From Terriglobia bacterium (lineage in GTDB: Bacteria > Acidobacteriota > Terriglobia > UBA7540): DNA of 42,951 bases. The notes under the pieces were generated by a model that was not told the origin of the DNA, searched no databases, and saw only the letters and a program-made list of their open reading frames with translations. The position numbers and the translations under genes were made by a program. Positions within the stretch are counted from its first letter, which is position 1. Every line of letters begins with the position of its first letter. The stretch lies in NCBI GenBank assembly GCA_020072925.1, contig JAIQGA010000035.1:1-42951 (forward strand), written 5' to 3'. Below are positions 15,313-26,610 of the stretch, piece after piece.

Positions 15313-16323
15313 ATGAAAATTCTGCGGCTTAATTCGGACACGTTCCCCATGACGCCCCAAGAACTCCGGGAGTATGAACGGGCCGTGATCGAGGTTGTTC
15401 GCCGGGAAACAGTTAATGAGAGTCAAGACGATGGGCTTTTACGGGATTTGGATGCCTTGGCGATCGTTTCGGCCAAGGTCGGGGGAAGTCTGATCAAGCG
15501 CCTGGAGAAGTGCAAGGTCATCTCGCGTTACGGGAGCGGGACGGACAACATCGACGTGCCATCAGCTACCTCTTGCGCGATTGTGGTGACGAACGTGCCC
15601 GATTTCTGTCTTTCGGAGGTGGCGGACCACACGATGGCGTTGATGTTAGGGCTCGCTCGGAAGCTCCTAATCATGGACCGCTCCACCCGCGCAGGGGAAT
15701 GGCAGGCGCGCCTAAATCGGCCAGTCAGGCGAATTGCTGGAAGGACCCTCGGTTTGGTGGGGTTCGGAGGGATCGCCCAGAAAGTAGCGAGCCGCGCGGC
15801 AGCCTTTGATCTTCGTATTGTCGCCACGGACCCGCGGCTGGACTCCGCGGCATGTGCCCGGCTTGGGGTCGATCCTGTTTCGCTACCGGAATTGCTTGAG
15901 CTGAGTGACTTTGTCTCGCTTCACGTGCCTCTCCTTCCCGATACTTTTCATTTGATCGGTGAAGGGGAATTGCGCCGCATGAAGCCTTCGGCTTTCCTTA
16001 TTAACACTGCTCGCGGAGCAGTTGTGGACGAAAGTGCACTTGTAAAAGCACTGAAAGAGGGATGGATTGCGGGCGCCGGCTTGGATGTCTATGAAGGCTT
16101 GGCGATGTTTGATCCGAGCCCTCAGGTTCCTGATCACCCGCTGTTCAAGTTGGAGAATGTCATCCTTACTCCACACTCGGCAGGATGTTCTGTGGACTCG
16201 CTGGAGGAGTTGTGCCAGCGGGGTGCGCAAAATGCCGTGGCGGTGCTGAAAGGGCGATGGCCCCTGCATTGTGTGAACCCGGCAGTTGTGCCCAGGATTT
16301 CTCTTGTCGGCAAGGTGGGGTGA
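15313..16323 (+). CDS. D-2-hydroxyacid dehydrogenase (phosphoglycerate-dehydrogenase-like)
   Basis: 336-aa NAD-dependent dehydrogenase that interconverts a D-2-hydroxy acid and a 2-oxo acid in the cytoplasm. The sequence shows the NAD-binding G-F-G-G-I-A turn (about 150-155), SRYGSGTDNID, the catalytic Arg234 in LINTARGAVVDE, the Glu in LDVYEG (261) and His288 in LTPHSAG, which is the full Arg-Glu-His triad of the family. There is no regulatory ACT domain, unlike long SerA enzymes. The start at 15313 is preferred over an upstream TTG, which would add nine residues; the ribosome binding site is weak. It is the first gene of the plus-strand cluster, 8 bp ahead of an SDR gene. In context it probably yields or reduces the 2-oxo acid used by the E1 enzyme rather than making serine. 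Confidence 0.85.
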   Translation: MKILRLNSDTFPMTPQELREYERAVIEVVRRETVNESQDDGLLRDLDALAIVSAKVGGSLIKRLEKCKVISRYGSGTDNIDVPSATSCAIVVTNVPDFCLSEVADHTMALMLGLARKLLIMDRSTRAGEWQARLNRPVRRIAGRTLGLVGFGGIAQKVASRAAAFDLRIVATDPRLDSAACARLGVDPVSLPELLELSDFVSLHVPLLPDTFHLIGEGELRRMKPSAFLINTARGAVVDESALVKALKEGWIAGAGLDVYEGLAMFDPSPQVPDHPLFKLENVILTPHSAGCSVDSLEELCQRGAQNAVAVLKGRWPLHCVNPAVVPRISLVGKVG

Positions 16324-17152: not shown

Positions 17153-18166
17153 ATGCGACCGCTTCTTTCCGATCATATTGTGTGCAGAGAAATCTACCGC
17201 AAGATGCGCCTGATCCGCCGTTTTGAAGAGCGGGTCGTTGAACTGGTCAACCGGAACGAAATTGCCGGTACTACCCACGAATACAGCGGCCAGGAAGCTG
17301 TAGCCGTAGGTGTTTGTACAGTGCTTGAACCAGAAGATGTGATCACTAGCACGCATCGCGGCCATGGCCATCTGATTGCGAAAGGCGGGGACGTCAGGCG
17401 GATGATGGCAGAGCTTTTGGGGCGATCAACGGGTTATAACCGCGGCAAGGGTGGCTCGATGCATATTGCTGACCTGTCATTGGGCATCTTTGGTGCCAAT
17501 GGCATCGTGGGAGCGGGTGTCCCTATTGCGGCCGGAGCAGCGTGGTCATCTAAGATCAAGAAAGTCGGGCGCGTGGCCGTCGCCTTCTTCGGCGACGGCG
17601 GGGCGAACCAGGGGGTCGTCCACGAAACCATGAACATTGCTGGTATCTGGCAACTGCCCCTGGTCTTCGTATGCGAGAACAACCAATATGCTGTCTCCAC
17701 GCGGGTTACTTATGCAACCGCGGGATCCAGCATTGCGGCGCGTGCCTCTGGATATGGATTCCCGGGCTGTATCGTGGATGGAATGGACGTCGGCGCGGTG
17801 ATGGAGGCTGCACAGGATGCCGTGTCTCGCGCACGGTCAGGCAATGGGCCCACTTTGCTCGAGTGCCAGACTTATCGGTTCCATGGACATTTTACAGCCG
17901 AGCGCGCCCTGGGAATCCGCTATCGGACCGAATCCGAAGTGGAGATGTGGAAGCGACGGGATCCGGTCAATTCGTGGGGCGCATGCCTTGAGGAGCTTGG
18001 ATATCTGAACGGTGCAGAGCGAGATAAACTCGATGATGAGGTCGATAAGCTGCTGGATGAGGCAGTGGAATACGCGCGATCAAGCCCCTGGCCCGAGCAA
18101 GCGGAGGCTCTCGAACATATGTATGTCACGCGTTATCCAGGACTACCAGCCGCGACGTCTCTATGA
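17153..18166 (+). CDS. Thiamine-dependent dehydrogenase E1 component, alpha subunit (pyruvate/acetoin type)
   Basis: 337-aa alpha subunit of an alpha2beta2 thiamine-diphosphate enzyme that oxidatively cleaves a 2-oxo acid or an alpha-hydroxyketone such as acetoin, passing the acyl group to lipoyl-lysine. It carries the ThDP/Mg site GDGGANQGVVHE (GDG 147-149) to CENNQYA (Asn177), and the lead-in ITSTHRGHGHLIAKG with the conserved His residues. The start at 17153 has GAGGG 5 nt upstream. Its stop overlaps the start of the beta-subunit gene (ATGA), so the two are translationally coupled. Its length and the close coupling to beta resemble AcoA/PdhA proteins. Alpha-subunit sequence alone does not fix the substrate. 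Confidence 0.9.
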   Translation: MRPLLSDHIVCREIYRKMRLIRRFEERVVELVNRNEIAGTTHEYSGQEAVAVGVCTVLEPEDVITSTHRGHGHLIAKGGDVRRMMAELLGRSTGYNRGKGGSMHIADLSLGIFGANGIVGAGVPIAAGAAWSSKIKKVGRVAVAFFGDGGANQGVVHETMNIAGIWQLPLVFVCENNQYAVSTRVTYATAGSSIAARASGYGFPGCIVDGMDVGAVMEAAQDAVSRARSGNGPTLLECQTYRFHGHFTAERALGIRYRTESEVEMWKRRDPVNSWGACLEELGYLNGAERDKLDDEVDKLLDEAVEYARSSPWPEQAEALEHMYVTRYPGLPAATSL

Positions 18167-19164
18167 ACCGGCAATTAAACTACTTACAGGCTTTGAGGGA
18201 AGCATTGATTTTTGAGATGCGACGCGACCCCAATATTGTCGTATTAGGAGAAGACGTTCGCATCTCGTTGCGCGGTGTCACCAGAGGTTGCTATGAGGAG
18301 TTCGGACCCGAGCGCGTATGGGATACGCCCATCTCAGAGTCAGCCTTCGTCGGCTTGGCGACAGGTGGAGCCTTAGCAGGGCTACGTCCTGTAGTAGAGT
18401 TTCAGATTGGGACTCTCCTCTACATCGCTTTGGAGCAGATGGTTAATCAGGCTCAGAAACTCAGGTACATGACAGGCGGGCAAGCAAAGGTTCCTGTGAC
18501 ATACCTTGTTCCCGGTTCCGGAGCACGGCCGGGTCTGGCCGGTCAGCACTGTGACCATCTTTATCCGCTCCTCCTACATGGCGGGATGAAAGTCGTTATA
18601 CCTTCGACCCCGTATGACGCAAAGGGTCTTTTCACTGCCGCTTTGCGAGAAGATGACCCCGTAATCCTATTCGCGCCCGCCGCTCTGTTGGGTGCAAAAG
18701 GACCGGTGCCGGACGAGGAGACTTACGTCCCGCTCGGAAAGGCCGAGATCAAGAGAACGGGGAGAGACGTGACCATTGTGGCAGTGGGCCCGTGCGTCGC
18801 CGAAGCGCTGAAGGTTGCCGAGCGGTTGGAGAAAGACGACATCGCCATAGAGGTATTGGACCCTCGCACGCTGCTCCCGTTTGATCAATCCGCCTTGGAG
18901 GCATCGGTGCGCAAGACGGGCAGGCTTATTATCTTCGATGATTCAAGCCGCACGTGCGGCTTTGCGGCTGAAGTTGGGGCGCGGGCAGCGGAAACTCTTT
19001 TCGCTCATCTCAAGGCTCCCGTTGTGAGAATCACTCGCGCCGATGTCCCTGTACCATTTAGCATCGCACTGGACAAACACGTTCTTCCAGGTACGGATAG
19101 CCTGGAACAGGCCATCCGCCAACTGATGGGTAAAACGGCAAGTCCCAAGCTCGCGGCCAGCTGA
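18163..19164 (+). CDS. Thiamine-dependent dehydrogenase E1 component, beta subunit
   Basis: 333-aa beta subunit (AcoB/PdhB-like) that completes the ThDP active site with the alpha subunit. Typical segments are VLGEDV, RVWDTPISESAFVGLATGGA, GGQAKVPVTYLVPGSGARPG, the conserved His of GQHCDHLYPLLLHGGMKVV, and the C-terminal transketolase-like domain TIVAVGPCVAEAL with VLDPRTLLPFD. It overlaps the alpha gene by 4 bp and lies 22 bp before the lipoyl-domain gene, so all three are surely made together. The usual beta-subunit ending is present and the length matches the family. Confidence 0.9.
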   Translation: MNRQLNYLQALREALIFEMRRDPNIVVLGEDVRISLRGVTRGCYEEFGPERVWDTPISESAFVGLATGGALAGLRPVVEFQIGTLLYIALEQMVNQAQKLRYMTGGQAKVPVTYLVPGSGARPGLAGQHCDHLYPLLLHGGMKVVIPSTPYDAKGLFTAALREDDPVILFAPAALLGAKGPVPDEETYVPLGKAEIKRTGRDVTIVAVGPCVAEALKVAERLEKDDIAIEVLDPRTLLPFDQSALEASVRKTGRLIIFDDSSRTCGFAAEVGARAAETLFAHLKAPVVRITRADVPVPFSIALDKHVLPGTDSLEQAIRQLMGKTASPKLAAS

Positions 19165-19186: not shown

Positions 19187-19432
19187 ATGTCGGAGTTATT
19201 TCAAGTTGTGGTCCCGAAGGTGGGGATGGACACAACTGAAGTAGAAGTTGCGAGATGGCTGGCAAAAGTCGGCGACTCGGTCACAAAAGGTACACCGTTG
19301 GCAGACCTCGAGACCGAGAAGACGACTTACACGCTGGAGTCGGAAGTGGCTGGCGAGCTTGTAGAGATCTACCATCCTGAGGGGCGAATGGTGCCAGTTG
19401 GCCAACCACTATGTCTTGTCAAAATCGGGTGA
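19187..19432 (+). CDS. Stand-alone lipoyl-domain (biotinyl/lipoyl attachment) protein
   Basis: 81-aa protein consisting of a single lipoyl domain: VPKVGMDTTEVEVARWLAKV, then the modification site LETEKTTYTLES with Lys45 at the hairpin, then VPVGQPLCLVKIG. In 2-oxoacid and acetoin dehydrogenases this domain is fused to a subunit-binding and an acyltransferase core (E2). Here the gene stops right after the domain, and the next gene, 15 bp on, is an unrelated regulator, so neither core nor hinge is present. The start at 19187 follows GGGGGTGG. It is expected to carry the acyl or reducing group from the neighbouring E1 to an enzyme encoded elsewhere, or the complex works without transacylation. 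Confidence 0.85.
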   Translation: MSELFQVVVPKVGMDTTEVEVARWLAKVGDSVTKGTPLADLETEKTTYTLESEVAGELVEIYHPEGRMVPVGQPLCLVKIG

Positions 19433-19447: not shown

Positions 19448-20206
19448 ATGAAAGCAGACTTAACCCGTGGCGATGAGCTCCCCAGAAGCCAGATGACCGT
19501 GTCTTTCCCGAGAATCGAGCCAGTCACACTGCGCGACAAAATCGTCGCTCTGCTCAAGGAAGCCTTCTTCTCAGGGAAGCTGAGACCAGGAGACCCGATT
19601 GTGGAACGAGAGTTGGCCCGGCAGTTCGACAGCGGCACGCCCGCAGTCCGGGAAGCTCTCATTACCCTCGAGCAGCAGGGGTTCGTACACCGGATCGCAA
19701 ACAAGGCAACCTATGTGACCGAGTTCAATCGGGACGAGGTGGAGCAGCTATATCTCCTGCGCACCGAGTTGGAACTGATTGCACTTCGATGGGCCAAGCC
19801 ACGGGTGACGGAAAATGACCTCGAAGCGTTGGAGAAGATGACTGAGGACATTATCGAAGCGGCGAAGAAGAAAGAGGCACACCTTTTTTACGAGCGAGAC
19901 CTGGCGTTCCACCGCCAGTGTTGGGCGCTAGCCGGGAACAATTTCCTGTATCGCTGCCTGGAGACCATCGTGGCCCCTCTGTTTGCGTTTGTGCTGGGTG
20001 ATAGTCAGATCACCGTGAACGAGGCGGTGGCTCGCGAACACTTGAATATTGTTAACGCACTCCGAAATCTCCGGGACCCCGATTTCTCTTCGGTCATTCG
20101 AAGCACCCTGAGTGGATTCGCTCTTAAAGGCATGACCTCGATAGTCGAGGTGAGCAAGTCTGGCAGTCGGGGCGCAGGGACAATGGGGAGACGTGGGACC
20201 GAATGA
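19448..20206 (+). CDS. GntR-family transcriptional regulator with FCD domain
   Basis: 252-aa regulator. Residues about 25-90 form the winged helix-turn-helix (LRDKIVALLKEAFFSGKLRP, GTPAVREALITLEQQGFV), and about 95-235 the all-helical FCD ligand domain with RDLAFHRQCWALAGN, whose Asp and His residues are typical metal/ligand positions. FCD regulators usually sense organic acids or sugar acids and repress their own catabolic operon. A strong GGAGGG lies upstream, and the stop overlaps the next start by 4 bp (ATGA). Encoded inside the dehydrogenase cluster, it probably controls it; the palindrome at 14828-14843 is a candidate target. Confidence 0.9.
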   Translation: MKADLTRGDELPRSQMTVSFPRIEPVTLRDKIVALLKEAFFSGKLRPGDPIVERELARQFDSGTPAVREALITLEQQGFVHRIANKATYVTEFNRDEVEQLYLLRTELELIALRWAKPRVTENDLEALEKMTEDIIEAAKKKEAHLFYERDLAFHRQCWALAGNNFLYRCLETIVAPLFAFVLGDSQITVNEAVAREHLNIVNALRNLRDPDFSSVIRSTLSGFALKGMTSIVEVSKSGSRGAGTMGRRGTE

Positions 20207-21026: not shown

Positions 21027-21902
21027 ATGAGGGAGAAGGGAAAGCTGGCCGGGAAAAAGGCACTGGTCACCGGCGCCGGAACCGGCATCGGGCGTGAGAT
21101 CGCGTTGGAATTCGCGCGCCAAGGCGCCAATGTTGCGCTGCACTACCACAACGAGGAAGGAGCGAAGACAGCAGCGGAAGAAATCCGGGGCATGGGACGC
21201 CGCGCCGCAGCCTTTCAAGCAAATTTCGATAACGTGGACGAAGCCGTTGGGCTCGCGCAGCAAGCAATCGAATTTCTAGGAGGCATCCACTGTCTGGTGA
21301 ACAACGCGGGCATCACCCTCAACAAGCCGTTTCTTGAGGTGTCGCGCGAGCAGTTTGAGACGTTGTTTCACGTGAACGTCCGCGGGCAATTTTTTCTGAC
21401 CCAACGAGTGGTCGAGTGCATGCTGGAGCACGGGGGGGGCGTGATCTGCAATCTGACCTCGATCCACGGACTGCAAGGCGCGCCGGAACACTCGGTATAT
21501 GCGGGAACGAAGGGTGCAATTATTGCCTACACGAGGTCCTTGGGGGTCGAATTGGCCCACCGAGGGATCCGCGTCAACGCCATTGCTCCAGGTTGGATCA
21601 CGGTGGAGAACTACTACAAGGCAATTCCCGGTTTTAACGAGAAGGAGACGGCCAAAACGGCATGGGAAAAAGTCCCCGTCGCACGCTATGGGACACCTCT
21701 GGACATCGCACGGTTGGCTGTGTTCCTATGCTCGGACGACGCCGAATTTATTGTGGGTCAAACGATCGTCGCCGACGGCGGAACAACCGCTTTGATGTCG
21801 CTATTCCCCGACTTTCGCACGAAGTCAAAGGCGCGCTTCGGCATCGGTTACGTACCCGGCGTTCAGGCGCGGGCGCGAATCCTGCGAAAGAAAGAGAGAT
21901 GA
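21027..21902 (+). CDS. SDR-family oxidoreductase (second in cluster)
   Basis: 291-aa classical SDR with TGAGTGIG (15-22), NNAG (92-95), Ser145, Tyr158 and Lys162 (YAGTK) and the end motif VGQTIVADGG. The residues HYHNEE after the second strand resemble FabG/glucose-dehydrogenase members that accept NADP or NAD. It has an unusual 30-residue basic C-terminal tail after the normal SDR end (KARFGIGYVPGVQARARI, then RKKER). It lies 50 bp after the lactonase-like gene and shares little beyond family motifs with the SDR at 16332, so it likely acts on a different step, for example the first oxidation of the imported sugar. The substrate is not identifiable. Confidence 0.85.
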   Translation: MREKGKLAGKKALVTGAGTGIGREIALEFARQGANVALHYHNEEGAKTAAEEIRGMGRRAAAFQANFDNVDEAVGLAQQAIEFLGGIHCLVNNAGITLNKPFLEVSREQFETLFHVNVRGQFFLTQRVVECMLEHGGGVICNLTSIHGLQGAPEHSVYAGTKGAIIAYTRSLGVELAHRGIRVNAIAPGWITVENYYKAIPGFNEKETAKTAWEKVPVARYGTPLDIARLAVFLCSDDAEFIVGQTIVADGGTTALMSLFPDFRTKSKARFGIGYVPGVQARARILRKKER

Positions 21903-22039
21903 CTTATCGGATAAGTGGCGCTCCGTCGTGCCCACCAAGCATCGTCGCAGGATACGAGAGCAAGTTTCACCTGAGATTGGAAAGGGCTGTTGAGCTGGAC
22001 CCGCGCGATATGGACGAGTCCACATGTCAACGTTCTTAG
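21899..22039 (+). CDS. Possible 46-codon peptide bridging SDR and transporter
   Basis: An ATGA overlap with the SDR stop opens a 46-codon frame beginning MTYRISGAPSCPPSIVAGYE, ending 16 bp inside the transporter gene. The chained overlaps at both ends suggest translational coupling, but the sequence is not recognisable and it may simply be spacer. Confidence 0.2.
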   Translation: MTYRISGAPSCPPSIVAGYESKFHLRLERAVELDPRDMDESTCQRS

Positions 22040-23058
22040 GAATTCTAGTGGTTACATTGGCGGGCCTGCTGATGGGCAGCGCGCTCTGGCCAATGAAGGT
22101 CATGCGACGGTTTGAGTTCGAACACTGGTGGTTTTGGGGGATGTCCGTGGGACTGGTCCTGATCCCCTGGCTGGTCACCCTTCTTTTCTGCCCGCATGCT
22201 ATTTCCGCCTACCGAACCGTCGATACCTCCGTGGTCGTGAAGGGCAATCTCTTGTCGCTGGCATGGGGCATCGCCAATGTGCTTTGCGGCCTGTGCTTCG
22301 TGCGGATCGGCTTCGCATTAACCGGGGGAATTCTCGCTGGCCTGGGAGTTTCGGTTGGCGTGATCCTGCCGATGATTCTCAAGGGGTCGGGACTATTCAG
22401 CGCAGCACCCAGTCTGGGATCTCTAGCGGGCCGGACAGTGCTGGCGGGGGTAGGCGTCATGCTGGTGGGCGTTGTTTTCGTATCTCTCGCGGGCTTCGGT
22501 CGCGAACGGGCGCTGAAGAACTTCGACAAACACTCAGGCGGTTTCGGGACGGGCTTGACCATGGCAGCAATTTCGGGAGTGCTTTCGGCAGGCTTGGGCC
22601 TTTCCTTCGTTTACAGTCAAGGCCCGATCGTCGCGGCCATGAAGGCGGGAGGAGCCGCGGATATCCCGGCCAATTTTGCGGTTTGGGCAGTGGGTCTGCT
22701 CGGCGGAGCCTTCGTCAACATTTCTTATCCCGTCTATCTTATGACCAAAAACCGATCGTGGAACATTCTGGTGGAGAGTTGGCGAGAAGCCGCCTTGGCC
22801 GCCCTCATCGGGTTGAATTTCTGTGGGGCGGTTGCGCTTATGGGTAAGGGAATGCTTCTGTTGGGCGCTTTGGGTGCCTCGGTGGGCTTCGGCATCCAGC
22901 AAAGCATGCAGATGCTGGGGAACCAAGGAGTCGGCTTCCTTAGCGGCGAATGGCGCGCCGTCCATGGCGTCCCCCGGAAACAAATGTTTATCGCTATCGT
23001 GATTCTGCTTGCGGCTGCGATCCTGATGGCTTACGGCAAAACATTGGTCAAGGCTTGA
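22024..23058 (+). CDS. RhaT-type L-rhamnose:proton symporter family permease
   Basis: 344-aa inner-membrane protein with about ten hydrophobic helices, starting MSTFLGILVVTLAGLLMGSA. Its length equals that of E. coli RhaT, and segments such as GSALWPMKVMRRFEFEHWW, WGIANVLCGLCFVRIGFAL and the C-terminal LGNQGVGFLSGEW follow the RhaT pattern. The family imports L-rhamnose with protons; relatives may take other deoxy or neutral sugars. It lies between the catabolic dehydrogenases and the glycosidase genes, so it probably brings in the monosaccharide those glycosidases release. No rhamnose isomerase, kinase or aldolase is nearby, which points to an oxidative pathway. Confidence 0.8.
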   Translation: MSTFLGILVVTLAGLLMGSALWPMKVMRRFEFEHWWFWGMSVGLVLIPWLVTLLFCPHAISAYRTVDTSVVVKGNLLSLAWGIANVLCGLCFVRIGFALTGGILAGLGVSVGVILPMILKGSGLFSAAPSLGSLAGRTVLAGVGVMLVGVVFVSLAGFGRERALKNFDKHSGGFGTGLTMAAISGVLSAGLGLSFVYSQGPIVAAMKAGGAADIPANFAVWAVGLLGGAFVNISYPVYLMTKNRSWNILVESWREAALAALIGLNFCGAVALMGKGMLLLGALGASVGFGIQQSMQMLGNQGVGFLSGEWRAVHGVPRKQMFIAIVILLAAAILMAYGKTLVKA

Positions 23059-24411: not shown

Positions 24412-26610
24412 ATGAGCGGCGAATGGGACAGGCGCGAATTCATAAAGAGTGTGATTCTGCAGGCTGGGATGTTTTCGATCAGCCTGCGCGGGAAGGCTCG
24501 CGACGAGTCCGGTGGGATACCACTCGTGGCCTTTCGGATCCTGCCCGCGCATTGGCTGACGGACGACCGTTTCCAGGAGCTGTTGGAATTCTTCGTGCGG
24601 CACCAGGGGGCCGTAGACGAGTTGGCTTTCTTCACTTCGCAGACCCATCCGCCATTACCGCTGGAAGAAATTGAGCATCGAGCAGAGCGATTGCAGAAGG
24701 TGCTGCCGAGAGTCCGGGAGAAGGGAATGCGGGCCGGCATCAATGTGCTCGCAACGATGGGGCATCACGAGGAGAATCTTCCCAACTCTCTCGATGAACC
24801 TTGGCAGCGCGTGATGGGTCCGCAGGGAAACATCTGCCGCGGTTCCTTCTGCCCGGCCCATCCCGAGCTGATCAATTACGCCAGGAAGCTTCATACCCTG
24901 ATGGCTGCGGCCGGCCCCGATTTCATCTGGATAGACGACGATGTGCGGCTTGCGGGTCACAAGCCGGTCACTTTCGCCTGTTTCTGTGACCTTTGTGTGC
25001 AGCAGTTCTCTCGCCAGGTCGGGACTCGATTTACGCGCGAGACGCTGGTGGCGGCCTTCGACACCGGCCCTCTGGAAGAACGGCTCCGCTTGCGCCGTGA
25101 GTGGCTGGAGCGCAACCGAAGGGTCATCGACAACCTGTTCCGAAATATCGAGCAAGCCGTGCACCAGGTGAATCCAGGACTCCCTTTGGGTTTCATGACC
25201 GGAGATCGCTTCTACGAAGGCTATGACTTCGAGCGCTGGGCAAAAACCTTGAGCGGCCCTGGACAGTCGCCGGTGCGGTGGCGGCCGGGCGGTGGCTTTT
25301 ACGATGACGACCATCTGCTGGGGCTGGTGGAAAAAGCCAACGACATGGGACGTCAGGTTTCGGCGTTGCCGCACGAGATCGACGTTATCGAGTCGGAGGT
25401 GGAGAACTTTCCCTATCAGCGGTTGCGTAAGAGCAAGCGGGCGACAGTGGTTGAGGCGGCGGTATACATGGCGGCGGGCACCGCGGCTACAGCATTCAAT
25501 GTCCTGAGCATGTACAAAGAGCCGCTTGACGAGTACGTCCCTCTTTTGGACCGAATCTCGCAGTATCGGCCTTTTTACCAGAAGTTGCAGTCCGCACTCG
25601 GACGGAGCATGGCGAAGGGCATCTGGCCTGCATGGAATAGCGATCTTTACAGCACGGTGAATCTGGACGGAAACTGGCTCTCGAATTTCAAATTACCTTT
25701 CACCGAAGCGTACGTCTTAGGCGAAGTCGGGATTCCTCTTTGTTACCACCCTGATGGTCGCACGGCCACAGCCCTCGCCGGTTCGGCTGTCTTTGCGTTT
25801 CCTCAGGAGGAACTTCGCCGAATGTTCGCTGGCGGTGTGTTGATGGACGGAGAGGCGTGGTTGGCCATGAAGCACTTGGGACTAGAAAGATGGACCGGTG
25901 TGAGCGAGTTGGAGAACGTCGATCGCGATGCTACCGAGGTTTTCACGAAGCATTCGATCAACGGCAGGTTTGCAGGCTGGTCAAGGGATTGCCGGCAGTC
26001 CTTCTGGTCGGAGCGCGCTTACCGCCTACGCCCTCAGGGTGACAACGTCGGAATCCTGGCAAGGATGATCGATTATGGCGGACGTGATCTTGGGCCCTGC
26101 ATGACAGCGTACACCAACGAACTTGGCGGTCGCGTGGTTGTCCTGGGATATTTTCCCTGGAGCCAGATTTACAGTATGGCGAAATCATCTCAAATGAAAG
26201 CTGTTTGTGTCTGGCTCAGCCGCGAACATCTCCCGGCCGTTGCGGAGTCTTTCGCGAAAGTCGTGATCTGGAGCCGTGAAGGCGCCGGAGGGGAAAAGGG
26301 AATCGTTGTGCTGAACGCCGCGCTTGACCCCGTGGAGAGATTGTCTTTGCGTGTGCTGAGCGACGAAATTCGCTTCACGCATATTAGCCCGGAAACGGAG
26401 CCGACGGAGATTTCCGGGGAGCGTCTGGTCTCCTTCCGTGGATATGTTCGCGTAGTCCTGTCCGATCTCGCTCCGTGGAGCGCGCACCTGCTGGTCATCC
26501 TGGGGCCTAAAGGGGATGGAGCGCGGCCTCATGGTTTAAACGAAGGCGCCAGACAGCTTTTTGGCCCAAGGCCGTCGAAGGTGCGAGAGAGCTACTCTGC
26601 GGAATCCTGA
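24412..26610 (+). CDS. Exported TIM-barrel-like glycoside-hydrolase candidate of unknown family
   Basis: 732 aa. The N-terminus WDRREFIKSVILQAGMFS is a twin-arginine signal like those of two other enzymes in the window. The middle is rich in barrel-strand-like segments with acidic ends (FIWIDDDVRLAG, LGFMTGDRF, SALPHEIDVIESEVENFPYQ), two Cys pairs (FACFCDLCVQQF), and a late GRVVVLGYFPW as in GH42/GH10-like proteins with an amidotransferase-like or beta domain. I do not recognise a family; WIDDDVR and HEIDVIESE are where I would look for catalytic acids. AAGGGG precedes the ATG. Its position between the DUF6786-like and GH95-like genes supports a role in glycan breakdown. Confidence 0.6.
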   Translation: MSGEWDRREFIKSVILQAGMFSISLRGKARDESGGIPLVAFRILPAHWLTDDRFQELLEFFVRHQGAVDELAFFTSQTHPPLPLEEIEHRAERLQKVLPRVREKGMRAGINVLATMGHHEENLPNSLDEPWQRVMGPQGNICRGSFCPAHPELINYARKLHTLMAAAGPDFIWIDDDVRLAGHKPVTFACFCDLCVQQFSRQVGTRFTRETLVAAFDTGPLEERLRLRREWLERNRRVIDNLFRNIEQAVHQVNPGLPLGFMTGDRFYEGYDFERWAKTLSGPGQSPVRWRPGGGFYDDDHLLGLVEKANDMGRQVSALPHEIDVIESEVENFPYQRLRKSKRATVVEAAVYMAAGTAATAFNVLSMYKEPLDEYVPLLDRISQYRPFYQKLQSALGRSMAKGIWPAWNSDLYSTVNLDGNWLSNFKLPFTEAYVLGEVGIPLCYHPDGRTATALAGSAVFAFPQEELRRMFAGGVLMDGEAWLAMKHLGLERWTGVSELENVDRDATEVFTKHSINGRFAGWSRDCRQSFWSERAYRLRPQGDNVGILARMIDYGGRDLGPCMTAYTNELGGRVVVLGYFPWSQIYSMAKSSQMKAVCVWLSREHLPAVAESFAKVVIWSREGAGGEKGIVVLNAALDPVERLSLRVLSDEIRFTHISPETEPTEISGERLVSFRGYVRVVLSDLAPWSAHLLVILGPKGDGARPHGLNEGARQLFGPRPSKVRESYSAES

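Follow-up and report, generated by a model that had tools for sequence, protein, structure and literature searches.

In the textbook view of 2-oxoacid dehydrogenase complexes, lipoyl arms are tethered to a giant E2 core, an arrangement that provides for substrate channelling. In AcoC-type E2 proteins, the lipoyl domain continues into an α/β-hydrolase-fold domain. Lipoyl groups can also be provided in trans by another protein, as in actinobacterial OdhA/KGD, where catalysis uses the lipoyl domains of AceF (PMC10415282), and lipoyl carriers can be free-standing, as in the GcvH-like proteins GcvH and LbpA, which serve glycine cleavage or Hdr-like sulfur oxidation (PMC6067878).

The locus presented here, from a Terriglobia bacterium, shares with the 2-oxoacid and acetoin dehydrogenase complexes E1 subunits of clear family and a lipoyl domain, with E2 cores and E3 encoded in the genome, but its lipoyl domain is a separate 81-residue protein without linker, subunit-binding domain or catalytic core. 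As with OdhA/KGD, catalytic parts would be served by the lipoyl groups of another protein; whereas that carrier remains part of the pyruvate dehydrogenase E2, the one described here stands alone, with its own E1 encoded alongside. Among NCBIfam models, the lipoyl domain matches the AcoC-type acetoin dehydrogenase E2 (NF011457) best, and the E1 is of similar type, but the protein described here ends at residue 81, directly after the lipoyl domain and with no fused α/β-hydrolase domain. Finally, it is free-standing like GcvH and LbpA but E2-lipoyl-like and located beside E1. In a literature search that covered few subscription journals, nothing beyond GcvH-like cases and general reviews turned up on free-standing lipoyl proteins next to E1; we found in it no earlier description of what appears from sequence to be an E1 with a free lipoyl carrier of its own, an arrangement conserved across phyla whose core is separate or absent.

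Results

A complete E1 pair is followed by a free-standing lipoyl protein

The window, meaning the whole stretch of DNA analysed, is contig JAIQGA010000035.1 (contig C2 of the draft genome) at its full 42,951 nt, giving a view of 15 kb of upstream and 23 kb of downstream sequence. Nine tightly packed genes run in one direction:

15316..16323, + strand: D-2-hydroxyacid dehydrogenase (2-Hacid_dh), gene 1 of the putative operon; Pfam PF02826/PF00389; same order in L043
16332..17111, + strand: short-chain dehydrogenase (SDR); Pfam PF13561/PF00106; same order in L043
17153..18166, + strand: E1α, ThDP-dependent dehydrogenase; Pfam PF00676, 297 bits; aligns with human PDH E1α 1ni4
18163..19164, + strand: E1β; Pfam PF02779/PF02780; aligns with Thermus E1β 1um9
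19187..19432, + strand: free-standing lipoyl-domain protein, 81 aa; PF00364, E 7e-18; model TM 0.92 against 3crk
19319..19321, + strand: AAG codon of Lys45, the expected lipoylation site, within the preceding gene; column invariant in ten detached homologues
19448..20206, + strand: GntR/FCD-family regulator; Pfam PF00392/PF07729; ortholog equally placed in L043
20203..20976, + strand: metallo-β-lactamase-fold hydrolase, UlaG-like; Pfam PF13483; absent from relatives' loci
21027..21902, + strand: second SDR; Pfam
22024..23058, + strand: RhaT-like sugar symporter; Pfam PF06379

Both E1α and E1β (17153-19164) are complete, can be aligned over their full length with E1s of known structure, and together supply the ThDP-dependent α and β subunits of a 2-oxoacid dehydrogenase complex. 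The lipoyl gene starts 22 bp past E1β and ends 15 bp before the GntR gene. GH95-like, esterase and outer-membrane receptor genes lie further downstream and, with the symporter and the second SDR, suggest that the substrate may be a plant-sugar derivative, perhaps derived from a sugar acid. A 732-residue protein without Pfam match is encoded at 24412-26610, in a sugar-type neighbourhood between a DUF6786 gene and the GH95-like gene.

The preliminary description of this DNA, made from the letters alone, had reported E1α and E1β followed by a gene that ends right after a complete lipoyl domain, with Lys45 in ETEKTTY, and both points stand. The intact 81-residue frame holds a full lipoyl domain across residues 6-76 as its sole Pfam match, and the structure that AlphaFold predicts for it (mean pLDDT 87) overlays 3crk, the lipoyl domain of PDH, with a TM of 0.92. 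The motif lysine is at the position given and, from its conservation, is predicted to be lipoylated. We also considered a GcvH-type carrier and rejected it: the protein matches PF00364, E2 lipoyl domains are its closest matches of known structure, and neither these nor Pfam place it in the GCV_H family.

The gene stops exactly where an E2 linker would start, as would be expected of a truncated-E2 remnant or of a sequencing frameshift, the latter having been named at the outset as one finding that would overturn a detached carrier. However, HMM scanning of 19.0-24.5 kb in all six frames, with filters off, found no remains of an E2 core, the regulator gene begins almost at once, and both the length of the protein and the gene order are the same in L043 and other loci, with Lys45 invariant. 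Recurrence in other bacteria of E1α-E1β with a lipoyl protein of 78-81 residues behind them argues against a frameshift, and we consider either kind of artefact or decay highly improbable.

E2 cores, E3 and lipoylation genes lie elsewhere in the genome

The absence of an E2 core and of E3 asserted in the preliminary description holds for the window and its operon, where no core is joined to the lipoyl domain and no E3 is encoded, but not for the genome (a 6.5 Mb draft of 456 contigs, 95% complete). Five E2 cores (PF00198) are found, on contigs C41, C282, C75, C95 and C155, each fused in frame to a lipoyl domain of its own and adjacent to its own E1, and E3 is available from two genes (TIGR01350, above the NCBIfam cut-off) on C41 and C282. 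LipB is encoded on C41, and LipA is present but split across two contig ends. Close kinship of one of these cores to the split cores of relatives, described below, was considered and found no support: none of the five is a close match to those, and they share 35-47% identity with many fused cores.

A second core-less E1 set is present on contig C33 of the same genome (L031:4121-10393). It comprises E1β, E1α, an SDR and a 175-residue protein in which a lipoyl domain, a linker and an apparent peripheral subunit-binding domain end before any catalytic core, and the set has enolase-superfamily and CoA-transferase III genes as its neighbours.

Related loci pair a detached carrier with a separate core, a dead-arm E2 or no linked core

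Among the 80 closest E1α loci in GTDB genomes, nine encode a free lipoyl protein of 78-90 residues after E1β: L042 and L043 in one Acidobacteria MAG, L045 in an Actinomycetota MAG, L089 in Chloroflexi, L044 and L046 in Mesorhizobium, and L050, L053 and L068 in Bacillaceae. L043 reproduces the window's order of hydroxyacid dehydrogenase-SDR-E1α-E1β-lipoyl-GntR, and detached carriers with an intact Lys45 occur in Acidobacteriota, Actinomycetota, Chloroflexi and Alphaproteobacteria loci. In the three Bacillaceae loci, E1α, E1β and the lipoyl gene (80-90 aa) are followed by a bare E2 core of 227-233 residues that keeps the catalytic HxxxDG motif. The Mesorhizobium operons contain, in addition to the detached lipoyl protein, an E2 (L044:13201-14268 and L046:9190-10260) whose built-in lipoyl domain carries Ser at the position of the Lys found in all the others, so that this E2, if active, would have to rely on the detached carrier as its arm.

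Plasmids carry further variants. The order on a Shinella plasmid (NZ_OZ000533.1, 212568-230789; L209) is E1α-E1β-lipoyl-glpD-aldolase-core, the core being bare at 225 residues; a bare E2 core adjoins E3 on an Arthrobacter plasmid; and a Rubrobacter plasmid has E1α-E1β-lipoyl with no core within 50 of 52 kb. The Shinella locus as a whole is of polyol/sugar type, combining the split E2 with its own lipoyl synthase gene lipA, a GlpD-like enzyme, an aldolase and an FGGY kinase.

No linked E2 core was found for the window genes or for their three nearest relatives. That a dedicated stand-alone core sits in the unassembled ~5% of the genome is conceivable given the fragmented draft and the existence of such cores in relatives, but none of the three PF00198 matches in the nearest relative genome, which has two detached-carrier loci, is a stand-alone core. 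Such a core is also missing from the near-complete same-class relative G434 (98% complete, 10 contigs), where three lipoyl-E1α-E1β loci are found and all three E2 cores are accompanied by an E1 of their own; we therefore judge a missed core to be improbable. At one of these loci (L192, on G434 contig C5), lipoyl-E1α-E1β adjoins apparent MetE-like, methylenetetrahydrofolate reductase and aromatic ring-cleavage type genes, a set that could indicate a folate or C1 connection.

Across 396 Acidobacteriota genomes, the other best matches to the detached-carrier profile are either part of full-length E2 frames or sit in short ones. The latter, 121-174 residues long and tried as candidate detached carriers, turned out where checked to be at contig ends or broken by N runs, and the detached arrangement is accordingly rare in this phylum. 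E1α genes outnumber E2 cores four to one in G010, five to one in G004 and seven (α-type) to three in G434, counts that are approximate in drafts; such an excess in several genomes fits a sharing of cores.

The window lies in an E1 clade with no intact fused lipoyl-E2 beside E1

In a tree of joined E1α and E1β (640 columns), L042 and L043 are the closest neighbours of the window (100/100); L044, L045 and L047 join next (100/99), followed by the Bacillaceae set (100/100). The E1α-only tree agrees. This ten-member clade spans Acidobacteriota, Actinomycetota, Bacillota and Alphaproteobacteria, and in none of the ten does an intact fused lipoyl-E2 lie beside E1: the lipoyl protein occurs alone in four, with a separate core in three and with a dead-arm E2 in one, and two (L047 and L117) have neither carrier nor E2. 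Other genomes with an E1-lipoyl pair lacking a linked E2, which the preliminary description had proposed to seek, are thus present. Shinella, Rubrobacter and Novosphingobium form a second, separate split group (100/95). The tree is unrooted and so gives no order for gain and loss of the core.

At L117:9959-15119 and L047:9962-11946, E1α-E1β of the clade has neither a lipoyl protein nor an E2 near it, and at L117 lactate-racemase (Lar)-like genes follow.

Discussion

In light of these results, we propose, with a probability of roughly 60%, that E1α, E1β and the lipoyl protein together make up a split 2-oxoacid or acyloin dehydrogenase in which the free carrier would be charged by its own E1 and discharged to CoA, and reoxidised by E3, in trans. 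The hydroxyacid dehydrogenase would oxidise its substrate to a 2-oxoacid; E1α2β2 with ThDP would decarboxylate or cleave the substrate and reductively acylate the lipoyl group on Lys45; and the acylated 81-residue carrier would then diffuse to an E2 catalytic core on a different protein, where the acyl group would pass to CoA, before its lipoyl group is reoxidised by a shared E3. In some clade members a neighbouring gene encodes the core; here, one of the five house-keeping E2s would provide it in trans. Read directly from sequence are the intact E1s and carrier, their conservation, the separate cores of relatives and the genomic E2, E3, LipA and LipB, from which we infer lipoylation, charging by E1, use of a core in trans and a CoA-ester product. 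We count against the model that no core is linked, that the genome's cores are not close to the split ones and that the carrier has no subunit-binding domain through which it could be recruited to one; actinobacterial OdhA offers precedent for lipoyl groups acting in trans, and the operons of Bacillaceae and Mesorhizobium clade members include an E2 core, which favours conventional transfer to CoA on a separate core.

That a detached carrier serves E1, as first put forward in the preliminary description, is well supported by its recurrence across phyla, the 100/100 E1 clade and the invariant Lys45, whereas we do not favour the accompanying idea of an H-protein-like protein with an unknown acceptor: in both sequence and fold the carrier is an E2 lipoyl domain rather than GcvH, and the operons of some relatives include the core. 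A carrier that needs no E2 core, its acyl-lipoyl group being hydrolysed or passed to a non-CoA acceptor in an oxidative decarboxylase or H-protein-like shuttle, could nevertheless account for the lipoyl-only members that recur without a linked core in unrelated taxa; free-standing LbpA shows that lipoyl proteins can serve other chemistry (PMC6067878), and the window does encode a metallo-β-lactamase-fold hydrolase. Yet the same E1 clade holds split-E2 members with a canonical core, the 81-residue protein is not GcvH by sequence, and we rejected the hydrolase as a general acyl-lipoyl hydrolase because it is not conserved at relatives' loci. On balance this reading is unlikely, and it is likewise doubtful that E1s with a free lipoyl protein form a widespread class that never uses an E2 core, delivers its acyl group to a non-CoA acceptor or to hydrolysis, and so represents a new type of lipoate-dependent decarboxylase.

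Taken together, these comparisons give good support to an E1 lineage, present in four phyla, whose lipoyl arm has been freed as a small, diffusible protein and whose core is a separate gene, part of a dead-arm E2 or missing. Recurrence in four phyla marks this as a real, inherited way to assemble the machine out of separate components. Release of the arm suggests that a single pool of E2 and E3 can be shared by several E1 enzymes of a cell. A freed arm would also permit direct tests of the need for tethering.
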